From IMG/VR virus record IMGVR_UViG_3300021182_000017, positions 1-47,657 of that record: 47,657 bases of DNA. One strand, written 5' to 3'. Shown here piece after piece: positions 6,408 to 44,503 of this stretch (positions are counted from its first letter, which is position 1; every line of letters starts with the position of its first letter). The notes under the pieces were generated by a model. The model did no database searches. It saw nothing but the letters and a program-made list of their open reading frames with translations, and was not told where the DNA came from. A program made the position numbers and the translations under genes. Origin of the DNA: a virus.

Positions 6408-9400
6408 GTGCGAGCTGTTTATCAGCCAAAGCACGGCCTAGCGGCGTATCGTTTTGTTGTGTCAGATTCCGGGAAGTTCCGGCTGGCACAACCAGGCGAT
6501 ACGCCCGATGGTATTGTATCGTCTATATCTGACGGGGATAGATTTAATGTAGAGACTACCGGGGAAGCGAAGTTGTCAAAGGCTTCGCTATCTCCTGGTA
6601 CGTCGTATGGAGTTGGAACTGATGGGGTATTAGATAGTGGCGCATCTCCTACATACGCCAAAGCTACAGCAACTGATACGGTATTATTACAGCAAGGCCC
6701 AGGTACCGCAAACGGCGGTAGCGGAGCTGGTGGCGGAGCTGGCGGAACTACAGTAATTACTACTGATGACATAACTGATATGTCAGCATTTGGGCGTGCA
6801 TTCGTTAAACGTATTAACGCCCCTGACGCTAAAACTCAATTAGAATTGAAGGGATTAAAGACTGATATCCCTAATAATACTGCGACATTACACGCCGGAT
6901 TATCGGCAGATCACACGTATAATCTGCCTGATCAAGATGGTACAGTTGCATTATTAGAACGCGAACAGACGTTTACGAAACGTCAACATATTCAAGGGTT
7001 TGTCCCTACAGGTGTCAACCCTGATACGGTATCGATTGGTGGCGGTGAGATATATGCTGGATATGGTGTTAGGTCATTCGGTGGTCCTGTTGTTCCTAGC
7101 GCCATAGGTGGCGATAGTAGACCGGGTACTTTTGTATTGCAACCTCCGCCAACCGGATGGCCTACTGGCGGTATGCACATGGTGTGGGCGGATATCAATG
7201 GTAATCTTAAAGCGCATTTAGGTATCAATGATTCAGCTATGACTAGCGTCGACTTCTCATGCGACGTAGTCGACGATGGGATGTACTTGTATACGAAACA
7301 GGCGGGTACGCCTAGTTTACTAACGCATTTTGGGCAATACGAGAATGTGCGTGGAGTTGCCGCTCCTACTGCTAGCAGTGGTGAAGTTAATATCGGCGGC
7401 GGCAAGGTGGAGGCTGGAACCGAAGTACGTGTCGGTACGACTGGCAACGCAAATGATCCGACTATAACTCCGACTGCAGTCGTGACGCCTCAACTTCAGT
7501 TGGCGGATACTACTGGCGTACATTTCACTGCAACATTACCTTCGTCCGTTTCGTACATTTCCGTGTTATCTGACCGATGGTTCAGTTACACCGCCGCTAA
7601 CGTACCGCCGGATACTAATCTATTCGATAGAAATATGGTAGGGTTTGGCGCAGGCATCGGGGCGTTTGGTAACAAGATTCAACTTCATCGCACGTTAGGT
7701 GGTTCAAGTAGTTGGTCGAACATCGTGTCAGCGGCGACGGATTCTCGCACGAACACCGTACCAGATAAAGACGGTACGTTTGCGATGACTTCGGATGTGC
7801 ATAACATGCCGACCGGAGGCACAGCAGGACAGGCCCTCGAGAAGATCGACGGTACTGATTACAATACTCAGTGGGTAACGTTACCAACAGTACACAACAT
7901 GCCAACTGGTGGCACGACTGGCCAGGCATTAACTAAGATAGATGGTACTGATTATAACACTCAATGGTCAACGATAGTAAACCATGATCCGCCGACTGGT
8001 GGAACTGCGGGACAAGTTTTAGCGAAGATAGATGGCACCGACTATAACTGGCAATGGGTAAATCAGTCTGGTGGCAGTATATCTGGGGGCAATACAGACT
8101 ATCTAGTACGGTGGTTAAGTGCCACAACTATCGGGTACGGGGTTTCGCAGGACAATGGATTACGCTTTAAAGTAGCGGGGACAGACCCCGGATTAAACAC
8201 GACAACCGGAACTGTAACCATCGCTGGTGGAGCCGTACGCGCGTACAATGGTCTATCGATAAACGGCGCTGACACGGTGACGGGCGCAAGTCATACCAGC
8301 ATAGACTTCGCTGGTGGATACGCGCGCTTTATTGGTTGGGGTCCAGACGCTTCTACATTAGGCAAGATCCAGTTTACATTGTCGCAATCTGGTGCATCAG
8401 CAGCGAAATCGGTGATGACAGTAGAGTCTGAGAATGTATATGTTAATGGTATAGTCCCCGCAGTAATGCCGGCGTCGACTCAAGTTCGTATCGGCGGCGG
8501 TGAAGTAGTCGCAGGGCTTGGCCACGTTGTCAACGGAGCAGTTACTACGGCGGCGGCTAATCTTGGGTTTGTCGATTATTCAACGAGTGGATTACGTCTC
8601 GCGTCGTTCGGTCCTGACGCATCTACTAAAGGCGTATTCAGCTTAGTGCTGGCTACCGGGTCAGCTACTCCGACTACCATAGTTCCATATAGCGTCACAA
8701 ATACCGGCTCTAACGTATTCGCAGGGTCAGACGCTGGAAGTGTTGCTGCGAGTAAAGTGTCGATCGGCGGTGGCGTACTGCGTACCGCAGGAGCTGCGTA
8801 CATAGATGGGACGGACCCCGGTGCTCCAACGTCCGCGCGAGTAACAATAGGTGGCGGCGTCCTACGCACGGGCGGGCTGTTCTATGCTGGCGGTAAGGCT
8901 AGTTTCTACGCCAGCACCGCGGCAGGCTCTTCGATCAACATCGCTCCGGGAGTTGCCCCCACAACTAAATATGATGGCGACATATGGGCTACCGCTACTG
9001 GCGGTCTATTCCATCAGGTAAATGGAGCCACAATACAATATACCGTATGTAGCGCAGCGATGGTTCCGGTTGTTCAGTCTGCGACCGCCGCATTAGCTAG
9101 GGTGGCAATGGGTCCGTGGAATGATGTCGGGGTATTGGGGATGATAAATGCTATGGATCCGACATACGGGGCAAAGTTCGATGGGACAACAGATGACACA
9201 TTAGCAATACAATCAGTACTAACTGCCGGGGCCGGCCAAGTTGTTGTGTTTCCAAGTGGTCGCACGGGCGTTATAACTAGCCCGATATTTGTTCCGTCTA
9301 ATACGATCATAATGGCATACGGGTGCACGATATTTTGTAAGTCCACTATGGACTTATCCAAGTGCGCATTCGTGTTCTCGGATGCTACATTTACCGTTGG

Positions 9401-10427
9401 TATCCACGACACTAAATGCTTTGGTTTAACAATAGACGGGAACCGCGCTAATCGGGCAACAGGGTCGCGCGGAGGCGCCTTATTCTACATATCCGGATCA
9501 TACCGTATTTTATTACAAGACTGCCTGGCCATCAATAGTCATCAAGAAGGGTTCCAGGTTTCTGGTGACACTGGGTGGGCTGGCGGCCTTTCTAAGAACT
9601 GCAAGACTATTAACTGTAAATCGGACACGGCATATCGTAATGGATTGAGTATATCCGGGACCGAGAACTTTGTCGATATCAACGGGGAATACCACCATAC
9701 GGCAGGTGCCGCCCCGCAGGCCGGTGTTGATATCGAGCCCAATGGCGCCACGTCTAAGAATCTTAACTTCCAGTTTATAGGCACATGCGCCCATGATAAT
9801 ACCGCTAACGGCCTACAGGTTACAGCATCAAGTGCTGGAAAGAACACCGGAACCATATCGGGTGTCTCCGCATCAAATAACGGCACCTATGGTGTCACCA
9901 GCGATGCTCCCATCGATCAGGTGCGGCTAAGTAATATTGTCGGATACAGTAACACCACCGCATTGGTCGGAGGGGGTTATGCCGTTGACGATAGTATAAT
10001 GACATCACGTATCTTACAGACGGTACGGGTCCGCGTAGCAGGGCCGCAGACTATTTCAGCGAGTGTGTTTACAGATGTAACTTCGGCTACGATTTCAGTG
10101 ACGCCCAGATATGCGAACAGTACGATACGCCTACATGTTCGCTGCGTGTACGAGTCTGTTACGATTGCCGCGCAAACTGATCTCGAAGCGCATATTCGCT
10201 TGGTAAACGTGGCTGCCCCAACCGTTGCATTGGATCTAGTCTATACCAGAAATAGTGGAGCGTCGGGGACCATTCGGTTGTCCGGGTCCGCCGTTCTAAA
10301 CTATGACCATATATATGGAAGCCTCACTCCTGTAAGTTATAAAGTACAAGCTGCGTATTTCACCGGTGGGAGTGGGATATCTATCAGCCAAGTGGAGCTT
10401 ATCGCAGAAGAAATAGCTATCGGATAA
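6408..10427 (+). CDS. Tailspike with pectate-lyase-fold beta-helix (receptor-binding depolymerase candidate)
   Basis: The 1339-residue fibre starts at GTG after AGGTAA. It has a low-complexity Gly-rich linker near residue 105, then a shaft with two repeat families. Six copies of an [VI]xIGGGxxxxG motif lie near residues 210, 328, 603, 694, 784 and 813. Three tandem ~28-residue units PTGGTxGQxLxKIDGTDYNxQW lie at about 464-551. Around 915 the classic entry GAKFDGTTDDTLAIQ opens a pectate-lyase_3-type beta-helix to about 1190. A beta-sandwich-like C-terminal domain follows. Such spikes bind and often cleave surface polysaccharide; catalytic residues cannot be assigned by eye. Confidence 0.9.
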   Translation: MRAVYQPKHGLAAYRFVVSDSGKFRLAQPGDTPDGIVSSISDGDRFNVETTGEAKLSKASLSPGTSYGVGTDGVLDSGASPTYAKATATDTVLLQQGPGTANGGSGAGGGAGGTTVITTDDITDMSAFGRAFVKRINAPDAKTQLELKGLKTDIPNNTATLHAGLSADHTYNLPDQDGTVALLEREQTFTKRQHIQGFVPTGVNPDTVSIGGGEIYAGYGVRSFGGPVVPSAIGGDSRPGTFVLQPPPTGWPTGGMHMVWADINGNLKAHLGINDSAMTSVDFSCDVVDDGMYLYTKQAGTPSLLTHFGQYENVRGVAAPTASSGEVNIGGGKVEAGTEVRVGTTGNANDPTITPTAVVTPQLQLADTTGVHFTATLPSSVSYISVLSDRWFSYTAANVPPDTNLFDRNMVGFGAGIGAFGNKIQLHRTLGGSSSWSNIVSAATDSRTNTVPDKDGTFAMTSDVHNMPTGGTAGQALEKIDGTDYNTQWVTLPTVHNMPTGGTTGQALTKIDGTDYNTQWSTIVNHDPPTGGTAGQVLAKIDGTDYNWQWVNQSGGSISGGNTDYLVRWLSATTIGYGVSQDNGLRFKVAGTDPGLNTTTGTVTIAGGAVRAYNGLSINGADTVTGASHTSIDFAGGYARFIGWGPDASTLGKIQFTLSQSGASAAKSVMTVESENVYVNGIVPAVMPASTQVRIGGGEVVAGLGHVVNGAVTTAAANLGFVDYSTSGLRLASFGPDASTKGVFSLVLATGSATPTTIVPYSVTNTGSNVFAGSDAGSVAASKVSIGGGVLRTAGAAYIDGTDPGAPTSARVTIGGGVLRTGGLFYAGGKASFYASTAAGSSINIAPGVAPTTKYDGDIWATATGGLFHQVNGATIQYTVCSAAMVPVVQSATAALARVAMGPWNDVGVLGMINAMDPTYGAKFDGTTDDTLAIQSVLTAGAGQVVVFPSGRTGVITSPIFVPSNTIIMAYGCTIFCKSTMDLSKCAFVFSDATFTVGIHDTKCFGLTIDGNRANRATGSRGGALFYISGSYRILLQDCLAINSHQEGFQVSGDTGWAGGLSKNCKTINCKSDTAYRNGLSISGTENFVDINGEYHHTAGAAPQAGVDIEPNGATSKNLNFQFIGTCAHDNTANGLQVTASSAGKNTGTISGVSASNNGTYGVTSDAPIDQVRLSNIVGYSNTTALVGGGYAVDDSIMTSRILQTVRVRVAGPQTISASVFTDVTSATISVTPRYANSTIRLHVRCVYESVTIAAQTDLEAHIRLVNVAAPTVALDLVYTRNSGASGTIRLSGSAVLNYDHIYGSLTPVSYKVQAAYFTGGSGISISQVELIAEEIAIG

Positions 10428-11383: not shown

Positions 11384-12274
11384 ATGTTAGGTCTTGGACT
11401 TGGTCGTAGGCTGTTAAGTGTAAATGGTAGCGGGGTTACCCCGTCACTAGGAGTACTAGATTTTCTATCCGTATCGCCGCTAGCCGCCTACTCGATGCGT
11501 CGCATGCGCGCCCCCTATACTGGGTCATTACTTAGGGTTAGACGATCCTCTGATAACGCAGAGCAAGATATTCATGCGACGATAACCGGAGACCTAAACA
11601 CAACTGAGTTACTAGGATTCTGCGGGGCTAATGACGGTTTTGTAACTACATGGCACGATCAGACCGGGCATGGGCATCATTTCGTGCAACCCACCGCCGC
11701 AACTCAACCTCGCATAGTAGCGTCAGGCGCGCTAGAGTCAGAGAACAGTATCCCCGCGCTTCGGTTCGATTATATCGCTGGGTCTTTCAGGGAAATGGAC
11801 TCGGTGGATTCTGGATGGTTGCCAATAGGCGGCGCAAACCGAACATTAAACTTATTATATCGACCACTTGATGCGATTACTGACATGGGATTTGTCGGCT
11901 GGGGATCTGGCGGACTTCCACTTGGGCAGTTCGTCATGTATCGATTCGCCACATATGAGCCGTTAATGAGCCAATTTGCCGGAGACGTGGCTGGGACCAC
12001 TGGCTACGACGAGCTACGAAAGATAATAACAATCACCTATAATAATCCGACTGTTAAGTTAATTAAAAACGGGGTTGATGTAACATCTGGAGATAATCTT
12101 AGAACGCTAGCAACTCTAGATAGCCCGTTGATTTTAGGACGTGCAGCGATCACTGGCAACTCCATTCTTGCGCACGTTCAAGAGCTTACGGTGTTCCCGT
12201 CTAGTTTATCAGACGCTGATAGGAATATATTGGAACGAAGTCAGGGCGCATATTTTGGTATATCGGTATCATAG
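11384..12274 (+). CDS. Carbohydrate-binding receptor protein with arabinofuranosidase-B-like N-terminal motif
   Basis: The 296-residue protein carries AAYSMRRMRAPYTGSLLRVRRSSDNAEQDI (about 34-63). This is the signature seen at the start of the alpha-L-arabinofuranosidase B catalytic-fold family and of related phage proteins of this beta-sandwich type. It is followed by WHDQTGHGHHFVQPTAATQPRIV, a concanavalin-like pattern. Catalytic competence is unclear; many phage versions probably act as lectins. Sited between lysis-type genes and a Cys-rich small gene, it is probably a second tail-attached receptor-binding or sugar-processing protein that complements the 1339-aa spike. Confidence 0.7.
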   Translation: MLGLGLGRRLLSVNGSGVTPSLGVLDFLSVSPLAAYSMRRMRAPYTGSLLRVRRSSDNAEQDIHATITGDLNTTELLGFCGANDGFVTTWHDQTGHGHHFVQPTAATQPRIVASGALESENSIPALRFDYIAGSFREMDSVDSGWLPIGGANRTLNLLYRPLDAITDMGFVGWGSGGLPLGQFVMYRFATYEPLMSQFAGDVAGTTGYDELRKIITITYNNPTVKLIKNGVDVTSGDNLRTLATLDSPLILGRAAITGNSILAHVQELTVFPSSLSDADRNILERSQGAYFGISVS

Positions 12275-29901: not shown

Positions 29902-30098
29902 TGTTTCCTCACTGGTAGCAGCGTGAAGTCAAACTTATCGCAACGTATAGGACACACCGAGGTACGAGAGTACACTACTGTCTTACGCCGGTTAACGTAA
30001 CATGTAAACACAAACCATTCTACTCTACGTGACAAATCCCACGACTGCCGTATCGGCGTGGGATCCTCTTCAGAATGGCGAAGCGCGACGTTAGACAT
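29898..30098 (-). CDS. Hypothetical protein, 66 aa
   Basis: Not recognised. The 66-residue protein begins at an ATG overlapping the metallophosphoesterase stop (TAATG), with AAGGTGA as ribosome binding site. Two late cysteines and charged segments (RRVEWFVFTCYVNRRKTVVYSRTSVCPIRCDKFDF) suggest a small beta-rich, possibly metal-binding domain (CYV...CPIRC). It belongs to the coupled chain with the phosphoesterase and the membrane micro-protein. Confidence 0.6.
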   Translation of the reverse strand: MSNVALRHSEEDPTPIRQSWDLSRRVEWFVFTCYVNRRKTVVYSRTSVCPIRCDKFDFTLLPVRKQ

Positions 30099-30796
30099 TA
30101 GCTCACCTTACCTGTCCATCGGCCCCGTCTATTCGTCCACATAGGTGTATGAATAGCGAGGCCATCAATGATAACCCCGCAGCCAAGAACAGGACGAGCA
30201 AGATCGAGATGGTTGTAGGCGAATGCCAGACTGTCGCTATCAATAAGACACCCAACAGTAATACCAAACAGCCTGCCGCGAGGACTGTTAAGCCAAACGG
30301 TATCTGCTTCAGAGTGGTAGTGACCTTGTACGATGCACGCTCCCCCGACACGGGCCAGTGCGCTCCGCACATTCTTGCCGAATTGATGGCGGAATAGGAC
30401 GGGGATCTTATCTCCGACGTATTCAACGATCTCATCGTGCCACGTCCAGTGCGGGGAGTCATAGATTTCTTGATAACTTTTAAGTACTGCTCGTGGTAGT
30501 CCGTGCTCGATGGCTCGACGATAGTAGAGAGATCCGTGATTGGACTCACAGAATCGTATGGCAGGGAACTCAGATCGTAGAGTCGACAAGTAATTTCGGG
30601 CAGCGGTTAGTTCGTCACCGGGTGACCGCAGATCAGGGTTAGGCGTATGAAACGATATTGCATGTCCATCAGCTTCGTCTCCTATGCATATGGTTTGCTT
30701 GGTTTTGTATTTGTCTCGCACAGCGCATAGGAATGCTAGCGCATCCTTATGCGTGTGAGGTGCATGAAGGTCGCTAATTACGAGTGTTGGTCGCAT
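30098..30796 (-). CDS. Calcineurin-like metallophosphoesterase
   Basis: The 232-residue enzyme has the dinuclear-metal phosphoesterase signatures in order: ISDLHAPH (Asp9, His11), GDEAD (39-43), SNHG (85-88) and GHYH (158-161). The third motif has Gly where GNHD/E usually has an acid, so specificity may differ from typical nucleases of the family. Substrates could be nucleic acid ends, cyclic nucleotides or nucleotides. It lies between the RHH and Cas4-like genes upstream and the resolvase downstream, which favours a DNA-metabolism role. It starts 19 bases inside the upstream RHH gene, with AGGATG as ribosome binding site. Confidence 0.85.
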   Translation of the reverse strand: MRPTLVISDLHAPHTHKDALAFLCAVRDKYKTKQTICIGDEADGHAISFHTPNPDLRSPGDELTAARNYLSTLRSEFPAIRFCESNHGSLYYRRAIEHGLPRAVLKSYQEIYDSPHWTWHDEIVEYVGDKIPVLFRHQFGKNVRSALARVGGACIVQGHYHSEADTVWLNSPRGRLFGITVGCLIDSDSLAFAYNHLDLARPVLGCGVIIDGLAIHTPMWTNRRGRWTGKVS

Positions 30797-40042: not shown

Positions 40043-40070
40043 ACGCTACGTCGAAAGTTAGACTTTGCAA
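40043..40070 (-). promoter_or_regulatory. Candidate leftward promoter, family member E
   Basis: On the minus strand: TTGCAA, a 16-base spacer with TAACTTT, then TAGCGT. It fits the family seen at 17619 and lies in the 77-base gap upstream of the replication ATPase. Its TTGCAA half is duplicated. Confidence 0.55.
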
Positions 40071-40101
40071 GCTACTCGTTCATTTGCAAGCTACTCGTTC
40101 A
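40064..40101. repeat. 19-bp tandem duplication
   Basis: TTTGCAAGCTACTCGTTCA occurs twice in immediate tandem. The copies span the last codons of the 88-aa gene and the -35 half of the following leftward promoter-like site. Exact identity suggests a recent slippage event. Confidence 0.9.
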
Positions 40102-40662: not shown

Positions 40663-40837
40663 ATCGTTCCGTTTCTACCCGGTCTATGGGTATGTAGTGT
40701 TCGCAAAAATCCCATAGATCGCATGGGCACCCGAAGAAGTATACACTATGCTCGTCTACTGCCTGCGTATGCACACTACGCAGACACTTCAACCGCTTCG
40801 GACACCGATGCTCCTGGCACAGTGCTAGGTCTCGCAT
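40628..40837 (-). CDS. Cysteine-rich small protein, 69 aa
   Basis: AGGAG six bases before ATG supports the start, inside the end of the 256-aa gene. The 69 residues hold five or more cysteines in a zinc-finger-like spread (LCQEHRCPKRLKC; FFGCPCDLWDFCEHY), followed by a basic tail. It overlaps the genes on both sides, which suggests coupling. It may be a zinc-binding regulator. The 62-base overlap with the preceding gene makes it slightly less certain than its neighbours. Confidence 0.6.
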   Translation of the reverse strand: MRDLALCQEHRCPKRLKCLRSVHTQAVDEHSVYFFGCPCDLWDFCEHYIPIDRVETERYEAKNTKRAAR

Positions 40838-41546
40838 ATCGTTCTCCTGTGGCTTTAGCCTGTTTGGCTAGATGAGCAACCACGCCCAAGGCGTAGACTT
40901 TATCGCGGTAGTTTACAAAGCCGGGAGTCAACTCATTCGGCGGAGTGTGTGGGCCTTCATCTTGCATAGTGGCGTCAGTGAATCTAAAGCCTATGTACGA
41001 CGCGCCACAATTTCCGGCGTATTTAACGTTAAGATCACACAACACGCCGGGTAAACGTTCTATATCTTCTAGTTTATTTGTAGTTGCAAGTGGTGCACTG
41101 GCCCAAGGATGGTCACGGCCAACGCGCACTACTGCGCTGTATACACTCTCGTATTTTACTCGACAATGCAATCGGCCTCGTATTAGCTGGTAAGTTCTAT
41201 ACGTTTGGTCTTGATTCCATGGATACGGTGACTGTGAAATGCGCCGCACTAGTAGTATGCCTGGAGTCGACGCATTAAATTTATACTCATGAACTTTACG
41301 GGGGCCACCATTTATATCGTTATCGTTTAAAGCCCATAAAGTTAGCATCTGGCCTCGTACACATATCTTACCATTGTACTCGTTAGATGTGCCACCTCGG
41401 CTGTTGATGATAGTTACTTGATCCCCCTCGCTAGTCTCCCACACGTCGCCCACCACAGGGGTAGGAAGTATATCGGATGAACTGCGGCGTAGCGCGTCTA
41501 ACCTATCAAATTCAGTCATAGCTGAAGTAATCGAAGTAGTTGGCAT
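40776..41546 (-). CDS. Hypothetical protein downstream of the amidotransferase, 256 aa
   Basis: Not recognised. The 256-residue protein is beta-rich with repeated small-barrel-like strands (GDVWETSEGDQVTIINSRGGTSNEYNGKICVRGQMLTLWALN; GILLVRRISQSPYPW). A C-terminal region follows with GFVNYRDKVYALGVVAHLAKQAKATGERYA. AGGAGTGAG sets the start. It follows the amidotransferase by three bases and so could be the third gene of that cassette, for example a target-binding or acceptor protein. No catalytic motif is seen. Confidence 0.65.
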   Translation of the reverse strand: MPTTSITSAMTEFDRLDALRRSSSDILPTPVVGDVWETSEGDQVTIINSRGGTSNEYNGKICVRGQMLTLWALNDNDINGGPRKVHEYKFNASTPGILLVRRISQSPYPWNQDQTYRTYQLIRGRLHCRVKYESVYSAVVRVGRDHPWASAPLATTNKLEDIERLPGVLCDLNVKYAGNCGASYIGFRFTDATMQDEGPHTPPNELTPGFVNYRDKVYALGVVAHLAKQAKATGERYARPSTVPGASVSEAVEVSA

Positions 41547-41549
41547 ATC

Positions 41550-42596
41550 TCACTCCTGTTGTGTGTTCAAGGCGGCGTTGACTACCGCAGTGTCAGAAGA
41601 TTCAAGATCCTCGAAACGCACTACTTTAGTATCGTCGAAGTCAATGGTTTCAGTCGGTGGGTCGAACTTCAGCGGGATAGGTGAGGTACTAAACTTAATG
41701 GACGGGTCAGGTATCCCAAAGTACGCCCACGCTTCCGGGGGATTGATGTCAGCTTCACCGGGCTTAGGCGTCATCTTCTTCAACACTTTCCATTCAACAA
41801 AACCTTCAGTGATAAACCCGCCGCTAACTTCATCGTAGTGGTACAACATAACGCCACGATTATTGCGCACTGGACGAATCCAACGTCCTGAGTTCTTATG
41901 CCACATGATATTAGTGAACATAGTTCCAGTAGGTGCGCAATACTTAGAGCCATCATCTACTTGACGGTACGACTTGGTGTAGTAGTCATCTTCGTAGTCG
42001 TACTTTACATACTCATTGTCGCCATCCATTGGGGCGTACTTTATAGGTTTGTATACACGAAACGTATAGTTAGAGTACCATATACCTTCTTCCCATACAC
42101 CGGCGGTGCCGTTTAATATCTTAACCACACCGTCAGCACGCATGCAACATAACTTATTGCCCGCTCCTATCCTAGTCTCTATTAGACTTAATATCGTCTC
42201 GTTATCTTCCCAACCACTAGGCAAGGCAGATAGCACATCTTCGACGAAGTACGAAGTATCAGACCTAGGATCAGACTCAATGGATCGTGTGCCTTGTATC
42301 ATTCCATTATGCATGACAGCGACAGTGCGGTCAGTAGTAAGGAATGGATGAGTCATAGATGGGGATAGTTCACCATGCGACTTGATGCGGAAGTGAATGG
42401 CGATAGGAACATCGTCAGGCGTGGACTCCCACACCTTTAAGAACGACTCTAGCGTCATATACCCTTTGCCGGTGAACAATGAGCCATCTTTGGCATACAT
42501 TATTCCAGCACCATCGGGGTTAATCTTCCAGCACTGCGACAACGTAGCGACGGATGGTCGGGCCACACCTTGTGGTACGTATACGATGATGCACAT
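41550..42596 (-). CDS. Class II (Ntn-type) glutamine amidotransferase
   Basis: The 348-residue enzyme starts MCIIVYVPQG, so removal of Met1 exposes the nucleophile Cys2, as in Ntn glutaminases. Supporting family features are NPDGAGIMY (26-34), IHFRIKSHGELSPSMTHPF (68-86, matching R...G...N.HP), VMHNGMI (94-100) and SDTSYF (112-117). It would release ammonia from glutamine for amide formation. It shares one base with the amidoligase stop and start (TAATG), with GAGGAG ahead of it. The C-terminal 220 residues, Tyr/Asp-rich in the middle, are an unknown extension. Confidence 0.85.
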   Translation of the reverse strand: MCIIVYVPQGVARPSVATLSQCWKINPDGAGIMYAKDGSLFTGKGYMTLESFLKVWESTPDDVPIAIHFRIKSHGELSPSMTHPFLTTDRTVAVMHNGMIQGTRSIESDPRSDTSYFVEDVLSALPSGWEDNETILSLIETRIGAGNKLCCMRADGVVKILNGTAGVWEEGIWYSNYTFRVYKPIKYAPMDGDNEYVKYDYEDDYYTKSYRQVDDGSKYCAPTGTMFTNIMWHKNSGRWIRPVRNNRGVMLYHYDEVSGGFITEGFVEWKVLKKMTPKPGEADINPPEAWAYFGIPDPSIKFSTSPIPLKFDPPTETIDFDDTKVVRFEDLESSDTAVVNAALNTQQE

Positions 42597-44374
42597 TAGA
42601 ATGTCTCCTCGGTAGCGGTTACTACATCATCCTCAGACTCAGTGAGATATCCCATAGTATTAGCACGTAGTAGCATATTGAACACGTACGTACCTACAAA
42701 TACTCGGCATCCGGCTGGATGTACGCGGCAGCGCAAGAACGCCAGCATTACCTGACAATCATTAGTGATAGGCGGTATGTGTTGGTCTCCGCCAATAAAC
42801 ACCCAAGTAGGAATTAGGCCGGGGTCAAGGTCATATCGTGTTCCTTGCACGTGATCGAGAACACTACTATCGATATGAGATGCTAGCCGCCGTTCTTCGG
42901 AGGCATTATTATACGATGCGCCAGATAGTGCCATTACCCCATTCTTTTGCGCTAACCTCGCTGTTTCTACATGTTCGGGAGCGTAGCAATATATAGTGCC
43001 ACGATGTGTGAATGCTCCTGGTAGTTGGGCAATCAAGTCTTTGTCTGGAGTCTTACATGACTTGTTGGCATTAAATGCGGCATCCATGCGTTGCAACTCG
43101 GGATAGTCTAGTGTAGCGAGGAACTTACGGTACTCAGTGCATTTAGGCACAAAGTTAGGAGATTTAGCCCAATCGTGCAACGAGCGTATGAATTGGGTAG
43201 CAGCAATGAAATGCGTCACGGTGTTGTCGCCGGCAAACCCTCGACATTCTACCGTATTCTTAGTCCAATTTAAGAAGCGATATCTATCACTTGTGCAACG
43301 CTCTTTGTCTTGTTCTAGCGCTTGCAAGACAGTAGGATCTGAATCTGTCTTTGACCATTGATTAAACCTGTCCGTAGTTCGCTTAGTAATATGCAGCAAG
43401 TAACGAGACATTAGACCTTTCGTGGTTATCATCTTCTCCATATTCATTGCTTGTTGTGGAGTTATAACATTACGGCTCATATGAACATGCAATCCGGCAT
43501 TGAGTGACGTAGCACTTGTGTCAATAAACTCATTAGCGTCATCATAGAACTTCTCGAATATACCACGATTTGACTTGATATATCCATTAGACAGCGGCAT
43601 AGTGACAAACTCGAGGCCATTCTGCAATGATCCATCAGTTTCAGCGTGCATCAACCCTTCTGGCAATGGCTCTAACAGCTTGCGTACAATAGGTTGAAAC
43701 TGATCGTAGTTGTAGTTACGTACTATTTCAAACTCAATCTCCGCGCCAGTATACCGTCCATCGTCTGGCTCGTCGCGAGCGATAAAGAACTTTGGGGTTG
43801 GTTTGAGTTTGCTGCGGTTAATGCGGAACCTAGCGCATGATGGGCATATACGATTGCCGTTAGATTGGGCAACCATGGGACGGCCACAACTAGAACACGT
43901 GGTATGCCACGACTCAATGCAGTTAGGGCATAATGGTTGGGCATGGCCAATTATACGCGGCGCGGCTAGTATGACGTTACCGTTATCGTCTAACAAGTCG
44001 GTAGGCATATGCATAACATCATTATGATGCCTACTACCACACCTACCGCATACAGTTGTAATAGCCTCGGCTTCTGCATTGGTGTATGCGCGAGTAACGC
44101 CGTCAGGACCGGTTAGATATACTGGATGCAGTATTAGTGTGTCAATATCAGCCCGATATTCAGTCGCACATGACATAGCAGTGTATGCATGGTAGTCGCA
44201 CACATACTGCGTGCCTAATTCTTCGCAGAATGTGTTAATAACACGAAGGCGAGGCGAGGATAAGTGATGGTCATCGCCACACAATGCGCAACGCCAGTTA
44301 GGCGGCGCGTTCTGTGGGCGTGGTATAGTGGTCGTTGGCATAACAGCCTCCAACGTAGAAATATCGTCGGGCAT
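42596..44374 (-). CDS. Amidoligase-family enzyme with N-terminal zinc knuckles
   Basis: The 592 residues begin with zinc-knuckle-like cysteines (CALC 29-32, CGRC 109-112, CPNC 149-152, CSSC 160-163, CPSC 177-180). A glutamine-synthetase-fold amidoligase core follows: GAEIEFE (210-216), AETDGSLQNGLEFVTMP (244-260), SLNAGLHVHMS (290-300), YRFLNWTKNTVECRGF (365-380). These are the acidic metal-binding strand, DGS turn and HVH/ECR signatures of that family, which joins carboxyl and amino groups with ATP. Residues about 430-592 are an extra domain. The start has AGGAGG, embedded in a hairpin. Coupling to the amidotransferase suggests ammonia-fed or linked chemistry. Confidence 0.85.
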   Translation of the reverse strand: MPDDISTLEAVMPTTTIPRPQNAPPNWRCALCGDDHHLSSPRLRVINTFCEELGTQYVCDYHAYTAMSCATEYRADIDTLILHPVYLTGPDGVTRAYTNAEAEAITTVCGRCGSRHHNDVMHMPTDLLDDNGNVILAAPRIIGHAQPLCPNCIESWHTTCSSCGRPMVAQSNGNRICPSCARFRINRSKLKPTPKFFIARDEPDDGRYTGAEIEFEIVRNYNYDQFQPIVRKLLEPLPEGLMHAETDGSLQNGLEFVTMPLSNGYIKSNRGIFEKFYDDANEFIDTSATSLNAGLHVHMSRNVITPQQAMNMEKMITTKGLMSRYLLHITKRTTDRFNQWSKTDSDPTVLQALEQDKERCTSDRYRFLNWTKNTVECRGFAGDNTVTHFIAATQFIRSLHDWAKSPNFVPKCTEYRKFLATLDYPELQRMDAAFNANKSCKTPDKDLIAQLPGAFTHRGTIYCYAPEHVETARLAQKNGVMALSGASYNNASEERRLASHIDSSVLDHVQGTRYDLDPGLIPTWVFIGGDQHIPPITNDCQVMLAFLRCRVHPAGCRVFVGTYVFNMLLRANTMGYLTESEDDVVTATEETF

Positions 44375-44415
44375 GATACCTCCTGACGAGTACTAGACTT
44401 AAGAAATGCCCGACG
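44365..44415 (-). promoter_or_regulatory. Perfect 10-bp stem enclosing the amidoligase start codon
   Basis: In the transcript, CGTCGGGCAT (44415-44406) pairs with ATGCCCGACG (44374-44365). The second strand begins with the AUG itself. The 31-base loop carries the AGGAGG. The stem begins only 11 bases past the tRNA 3' end, so it would sit at the new 5' end after tRNA processing. Confidence 0.75.
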
Positions 44416-44426
44416 GCGTCGAGCTA

Positions 44427-44503
44427 TGGTGACCGCCCAAGGAGTCGAACCTTGAACCTGTACGGTAGAATCGTACTGCTCTATCCAGTTGAGCTAGGCG
44501 GAC
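44427..44503 (-). tRNA. tRNA-Arg (anticodon UCU)
   Basis: The 77-base cloverleaf is complete. The acceptor GTCCGCC pairs with GGCGGTC except for a T-T mismatch at the second pair. The D arm is GCTC/GAGC, the anticodon stem GTACG/CGTAC with loop ATTCTAC (anticodon TCT), and the T arm CAAGG-TTCGACT-CCTTG. A discriminator A and encoded CCA complete it. It would read AGA and AGG codons. It lies inside the leftward transcript, between the 28-aa frame and the amidoligase. Confidence 0.95.

Follow-up and report, generated by a model that had tools for sequence, protein, structure and literature searches.

We describe two adjacent genes on the minus strand of the virus contig IMGVR_UViG_3300021182_000017 (47,657 nt, the whole of which is the window analysed here), which encode an amidoligase (AL) and a class II glutamine amidotransferase-like glutaminase (GAT) and probably specify the two subunits of a glutamine-dependent, amide-forming enzyme. 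The assignment of AL to the amidoligase, or COOH-NH2 ligase, class is secure, and structural models support a glutamine-synthetase-like fold for AL and, for GAT, the N-terminal nucleophile (Ntn) hydrolase fold of class II glutaminases with an intact active site. By its profile, GAT appears nearer to the ammonia-channelling synthases GlmS/GFAT and PurF than to EgtC, and since such a synthase-like glutaminase would be translated in tandem with an ATP-dependent ligase, an amide synthase is the simplest reading. Phages and the mobile DNA of gut bacteria commonly carry this pair, with strongly conserved gene order and junction.

A sequence-only reading of this DNA had described AL by five signatures, all of which are present in a protein whose coordinates, length and strand agree exactly: GAEIEFE (residues 210–216), ETDGSL (245–250), GLEFVTMP (253–260), GLHVHMS (294–300) and NTVECRGF (373–380). 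The core residues are G210xE212xE214, D247GS, E255, P260, G294xH296xH298, R332, R364Y, N369 and T374xE376xR378; the catalytic and metal-binding set (ExE, D, E, HxH and ExR) is complete and shows no substitution in any representative whose sequence extends to the column in question. Because both proteins are very divergent, direct Pfam scans stayed below cut-off: a scan of the window with PF12224 gave no match at E ≤ 1, AL itself being below the Pfam cut-off, and GAT reached GATase_6 with E = 0.025 and 15 bits, under the cut-off of 27. Profile searches, which had been suggested as a check on the ligase, nevertheless placed AL well above chance when hidden Markov models (HMMs) were built from the AL cores and GAT domains of 38 non-redundant relatives, the window being excluded. 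The AL model found AL with E = 6e-32 (103 bits); by comparison, the runner-up among 100 open reading frames (ORFs) of the window had E = 0.98, and 400 shuffled proteins gave 3 at best. AL also matched the PHROGs families phrog_2443 (amidoligase, 1.6e-7) and phrog_16683 (unnamed, 1.6e-15), and PF12224 was matched by 40 of the 43 aligned AL family members.

The AlphaFold2 model of the AL core has a predicted local distance difference test score (pLDDT) mostly of 80–95, with a dip near residues 341–360. Foldseek placed this model with YbdK (2.6e-6) and with glutamine synthetases (2e-4 to 1e-2, probability about 1), and more weakly with Dop; phage amidoligases were matched too. The whole-chain template modelling (TM) scores of AL were low, and its zinc and tail regions were poorly modelled. 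In a sequence search of the PDB with AL alone, all matches were of RING2 type and covered the zinc region, which we read as an effect of the Cys-rich part of AL. Neither window protein, used singly as a query against viral contigs, retrieved a close relative. Two alignments, A1 and A2, were too divergent to serve as queries. In a tree of ligase cores, AL stands alone on a long branch whose position is uncertain.

The second gene had been read as an Ntn glutaminase with Cys2, and this identification holds. The active-site set comprises the Met-Cys2 start, H68xR70, H83P84, H96N97G98 and D113, and GAT aligns with GlmS over HTRWATHG...HNG, with Cys2 and HNG intact. Each residue of this set is kept in 37 or 38 of the 38 representatives, C2, R70, N97 and G98 in all of them and D113 in 37. 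The leave-out HMM found GAT with E = 2.4e-47 (next best of the 100 ORFs, 1.4; best of the 400 shuffled proteins, 0.31), and GAT matched phrog_25883 (5e-18). Its profile matched GlmS (7e-10) and PurF (2e-7), and EgtC was not among the matches at E ≤ 1. The pLDDT of residues 1–185 is mostly above 90, and Foldseek with this model retrieved GFAT/GlmS (8e-8), EgtC (4e-5) and PurF.

The stop codon of AL and the start codon of GAT share one base in the sequence TAATG, exactly as had been noted. Together with a GAGGAG motif inside the 3′ end of AL, this predicts translational coupling of the two genes (Table 1).

Ahead of its core, AL contains five CxxC pairs, starting at residues 29, 109, 149, 160 and 177, and one CxxH at 59. 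Together these could form up to three four-ligand modules, in the putative pairing given in Table 1. The earlier count of five CxxC pairs is therefore correct, whereas their description as zinc-knuckle-like is not: a zinc knuckle has the pattern C-x2-C-x4-H-x4-C (CCHC), and the arrangements in AL, CxxC...CxxC and CxxC...CxxH, are of the C4 zinc-ribbon or LIM-like type. The Cys region of the relatives likewise resembles LIM domains or zinc ribbons, with a LIM match just under the cut-off in locus L014. The four Cys of module 3, which adjoins the core, are conserved across an alignment of 43 homologs (at least 90% of them). Among the 144 AL family members with enough sequence in this region, 125 have a C4 ribbon ahead of the core. 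The sequence-only reading had taken zinc on a ligase as a sign of a specific macromolecular target; as module 3 is nearly family-wide, zinc alone is no argument for such a target. The proximal ribbon would rather be part of the enzyme architecture, leaving the variable upstream part as the only candidate for targeting. The number of CxxC pairs among the relatives ranges from 2 to 19, with most upstream of the core in L058 (19) and in L081, L085 and L097 (18 each). These four loci encode unusually long zinc-ribbon arrays with 38–42 Cys (L058, 1241–2926; L081; L085, 2987–4822; L097, 2497–4122).

Distribution of the pair in phages and bacteria

We compiled two sets of loci: a viral and mobile set of 99, from separate searches of viral contigs with an AL pattern and a GAT pattern plus named records, and a Firmicutes set of 80, from a search of bacterial genomes with AL, mostly from Oscillospiraceae and other Clostridia. 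The viral and mobile set includes many near-duplicates, its ligases forming 22 clusters at 40% identity. The linkage of amidoligase and amidotransferase genes that gene-neighbourhood studies predict was found in both sets. As in the window, AL precedes GAT on the same strand in 95 of the 99 viral and mobile loci, nearly always directly adjacent (wider spacing occurs in L006, with 1.1 kb, and in L016 and L096, with about 0.6 kb), and GAT adjoins AL, in the same order, in 76 of the 80 Firmicutes loci. Three of the four viral exceptions (L029, L091 and L092) start at a contig end, the fourth being Bifidobacterium phage BP742P1; in three of the four Firmicutes exceptions (L157, L171 and L189) the contig ends just downstream, the fourth being L181. 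No junction is commoner than the one-base overlap, which links 45 pairs in the viral set (counting the window) and 34 in the Firmicutes set. The description of a phage-encoded cassette thus stands in that phages carry the pair, but the pair is no phage speciality, since mobile elements of Oscillospiraceae and their relatives commonly carry it.

Pfam scans of the flanking genes revealed no third conserved partner in the phage or Clostridia loci. The neighbours are replication, resolvase and integration genes in the phage loci, and resolvases, with some relaxase or primase genes, in Clostridia. Given the lack of a constant third partner and the proximity of mobility genes, the AL-GAT pair is a mobile, self-contained two-gene module. 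No fused AL-GAT proteins occurred among the 78 GAT and 86 AL matches from locus L113 onward. Several copies may coexist: Pseudoflavonifractor phocaeensis An858 has three copies of the pair on separate contigs (L125, L126 and L134), and the 106-kb record of Acinetobacter phage vB_AciJM_313 (L115, PX050566) has three AL paralogues, one followed by a glutaminase gene and two located near the ends of the record, perhaps in a terminal repeat. We also considered membership of an anti-phage defence system, which was rejected because the PADLOC models did not match the window proteins or their relatives.

Proposed reaction and alternatives

In the proposed amide synthase, GAT would use Cys2 as the nucleophile to convert glutamine into glutamate and ammonia, AL would use ATP-Mg to activate a carboxylate as an acyl phosphate, and the ammonia delivered from GAT would capture this intermediate to yield a carboxamide. 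Translational coupling would supply the subunits in a matched ratio. The core-adjacent C4 ribbon would probably be structural or shape the entry to the active site, and those upstream, which vary, may serve to bind a partner or a macromolecular substrate. Because the pair is placed with replication genes, action early in infection is probable, and the likeliest broad purpose of the enzyme would be to alter a host or phage molecule for the benefit of the element. A bolder version, which we consider quite doubtful, is a self-sufficient, glutamine-dependent amidation system with zinc ribbons, common to phages and bacterial mobile elements, that would amidate or tag carboxylates on a specific host macromolecule, the variable arrays (2 to 19 CxxC) choosing the target. 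If a host protein or metabolite is indeed amidated, this would be a new reaction of phage takeover or of mobile-element maintenance.

Several observations weigh against a two-subunit synthase. The complete 130-kb genome of Clostridioides phage AR1086-1 encodes an AL-family ligase without zinc ribbons (L113, 3743–4855) and no glutaminase anywhere, which shows that the ligase domain does not strictly depend on a GAT partner; the joint absence of ribbons and glutaminase hints at a possible functional link between them. Conversely, the partial record of phage BP742P1 contains GAT without AL, and no GAT is detectable in L181, though this locus lies away from a contig end. The predicted TM scores of the whole AL and GAT chains, modelled from alignments of 40–43 sequences, reach only 0.56–0.60. 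Moreover, class II GAT-like folds include pure hydrolases, such as EgtC, and we found no biochemistry of the AL-GAT family in the literature. In AR1086-1, the ligase gene is followed by one for an RlaP-type (RNA repair) nucleotidyltransferase.

EgtC is the basis of a serious alternative, an add-and-remove pair in which the ligase would attach an amino acid, such as glutamate, to an amine, and GAT, as a gamma-glutamyl amidohydrolase and not an ammonia donor, would later remove the gamma-glutamyl group. In ergothioneine synthesis, EgtA resembles gamma-glutamylcysteine ligase and EgtC is a glutamate-removing class II GAT-like amidohydrolase (PMC9103826). Such a role would be consistent with the Foldseek match of GAT to EgtC (4e-5), with the Pfam GATase_4 matches of some GAT relatives, and with a gamma-glutamyl cyclotransferase (GGCT) gene in phiEco32 and in 3 of 26 related phage records. 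GGCT is, however, absent from the other 23 records and from the window, the GAT profile finds GlmS and PurF and not EgtC at E ≤ 1, and synthesis and removal in equal, strictly coupled measure would waste effort. We regard this alternative as unlikely. Equally improbable in our view is a modification of peptidoglycan that blocks superinfection. Phage amidoligase and glutamine amidotransferase genes have been classed in a 'peptidoglycan modification' cassette in which they are accompanied by GGCT, an ATP-grasp enzyme and a further ligase (PMC5498523; PMC11945000; PMC3890496) and which is attributed, for phiEco32, LUZ24 and RIO-1, to Iyer 2009 and Hardies 2013, as cited in PMC5498523; AL-GAT would be its minimal version. 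The published proposal concerns homologous enzymes (PMC5498523; PMC11945000; PMC10580990), and bacteria do amidate peptidoglycan glutamate by means of MurT/GatD (PMC3267633). Yet no experimental test of a cell-wall target was found in the passages of the literature consulted, the window lacks GGCT and the PF14395 ligase, both of which were matched in positive controls, and the ligases of phiEco32 and LUZ24 are zinc-free and score 31 and 21 bits on the leave-out profile that gives 103 for AL. PF14395 occurs in none of the 26 related phage records and was matched in LUZ24 and phiEco32 as positive controls, and ATP-grasp had no match among the window proteins scanned nor among the neighbour families listed for related loci.

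Modification of proteins, with the zinc arrays recognising a host protein and the complex amidating its carboxylate side chains or ligating to them, would fit the range of 2 to 19 CxxC seen in the LIM/RING-like C4 modules of the relatives, as expected for docking different partners, and phage-encoded protein-modifying ligases have been proposed for another ATP-grasp clade (PMC4431377). It is doubtful nonetheless, as a near-universal ribbon adjacent to the core fits a structural role equally well, and no target, adapter or fused recognition domain was found. A tRNA-linked reaction, such as the amidation of a misacylated tRNA, was suggested by the tRNA-Arg (tct) gene 52 bases before AL and by tRNA genes near the pair in L008 and L009; most other viral loci scanned have none there, and we rejected this function as extremely unlikely because tRNAs are not generally beside the pair.

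Surroundings of the pair in the window

The window encodes matches to terminase, portal and head proteins, a family A polymerase, an SNF2 helicase and a metallophosphoesterase; metallophosphoesterases have also been reported from the group of OM43 phages in which the AL-GAT pair occurs (PMC10580990). A 256-aa ORF starts three bases past the end of GAT, is probably on the AL-GAT transcript and could be a third, lineage-specific member of the operon. No relatives of it were detected in any library searched. As to tRNA genes, phage StenR_269 too has a tRNA-Arg (tct) ahead of a GAT gene (L008, 5724–5800), and phiEco32 contains a tRNA-Arg.

Table 1. Coordinates of AL, GAT and neighbouring features in the window
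Feature	Position	Strand	Basis
AL gene, 592 aa; glutamine-synthetase-like carboxylate-amine ligase, zinc modules at the N-terminus	42596..44374	-	ORF, profiles, Foldseek
AL, possible zinc module 1 (C29-C32 / C59-H62)	44189..44290	-	sequence; low model confidence, ligands assigned by inference
AL, putative zinc module 2 (C109-C112 / C149-C152)	43919..44050	-	sequence
AL, putative zinc module 3, adjoining the core (C160-C163 / C177-C180)	43835..43897	-	alignment conservation
AL catalytic core, residues 207–424	43103..43756	-	HMM span and conservation over 38 representatives
AL C-terminal extension, residues 440–592	42599..43057	-	unaligned with relatives, mostly low-confidence
GAT gene, 348 aa, class II glutaminase	41550..42596	-	ORF, leave-out HMM, phrog_25883, Foldseek
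GAT Ntn domain, residues 1–185	42042..42596	-	pLDDT, conservation, GlmS alignment
GAT C-terminal tail, residues 186–348	41553..42041	-	unconserved, mostly low-confidence
TAATG stop-start overlap, one base shared by AL and GAT	42594..42598	-	sequence
GAGGAG, ribosome-binding-like site for GAT, within the 3′ end of AL	42605–42610	-	sequence
AGGAGG, ribosome-binding-like site of AL	44379..44384	-	sequence
ORF of 256 aa just 3′ of GAT, with its own ribosome-binding-like site	40776..41546	-	sequence
tRNA-Arg (tct), upstream of AL	44427–44503	-	
Metallophosphoesterase	30098–30796	-	phrog_221, 4e-50

Further from the pair, a 19-base perfect tandem duplication (TTTGCAAGCTACTCGTTCA) occupies positions 40064–40101, at the end of a 100-aa ORF downstream of it. 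GC-rich tandem repeats with CGAGCA-type units lie near both contig ends (161–367 and 47304–47371) and yield low-complexity peptides in overlapping ORFs; they could be a terminal repeat or an assembly artefact. On the plus strand, a 1339-aa protein (6408–10427) has a weak pectate-lyase-like match and a 296-aa protein (11384–12274) has arabinofuranosidase/laminin-G-like matches, and both may be virion proteins that bind or degrade polysaccharides.

Comparison with known systems

The AL-GAT pairing was previously noted in OM43 phages and in mycobacteriophage Marvin (PMC10580990), and the pair of the window is a new, deeply diverged example of it. In the OM43 phages MEP401 and MEP402 (PMC10580990), as in the window, AL lies immediately before GAT, the two genes overlap slightly and replication genes are close by; both proteins are homologous to those of the window. 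AL identity is 22%, though, their ligase has two CxxC compared with five, and the long C-terminal tails of AL and GAT in the window have no match in them. Marvin (cluster S) shares the gene order, the CxxC pairs ahead of the ligase core and catalytic residues of GAT identical to those of the window, but differs in a gap of 79 bases between the genes and in an AL identity of about 23%. The amidoligase of Marvin is gp105 (L004, 6560–7921) and its amidotransferase gp106; the GenBank label of gp105, 'glutamine amidotransferase domain protein', is repeated in many cluster S phages.

With the phiEco32/LUZ24/RIO-1 cassette, the window shares an amidoligase beside a class II GAT, among replication genes. 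The cassette, however, has five or more enzymes, including GGCT, ATP-grasp and the PF14395 ligase, against two genes here, its GATs are of 510–676 aa against 348, and the phiEco32 and LUZ24 ligases contain no CxxC. Membership of a phiEco32-type cassette was thus rejected, since the other genes of that cassette are lacking here and its ligases differ in type, and the zinc-ribbon AL-GAT pair, to judge by gene content and ligase type, is a two-gene module distinct from the larger cassette. StenR_269 has a multi-gene arrangement with GGCT, and its ligase lacks zinc ribbons ahead of the core.

More distantly, MurT/GatD and EgtA/EgtC each combine, like the window, a ligase with a glutaminase-type partner. 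MurT belongs among the Mur ligase-like proteins, and GatD is a glutamine amidotransferase of class I. EgtC is a hydrolase and not an ammonia donor (PMC9103826). The same two-gene module as in the window, often with the same one-base overlap, is formed by genes annotated as 'Amidoligase family protein' on mobile elements of Oscillospiraceae and their relatives; these ligases have 6–7 CxxC, and the module resides in bacterial genomes, commonly near resolvases and in several copies in some of them. The pairing itself was already published, and what is new here is that a mobile module of two genes, with zinc ribbons, can be told apart from the larger cassette. As the two genes form a unit alone, without wall-modification genes, a direct biochemical test is feasible.

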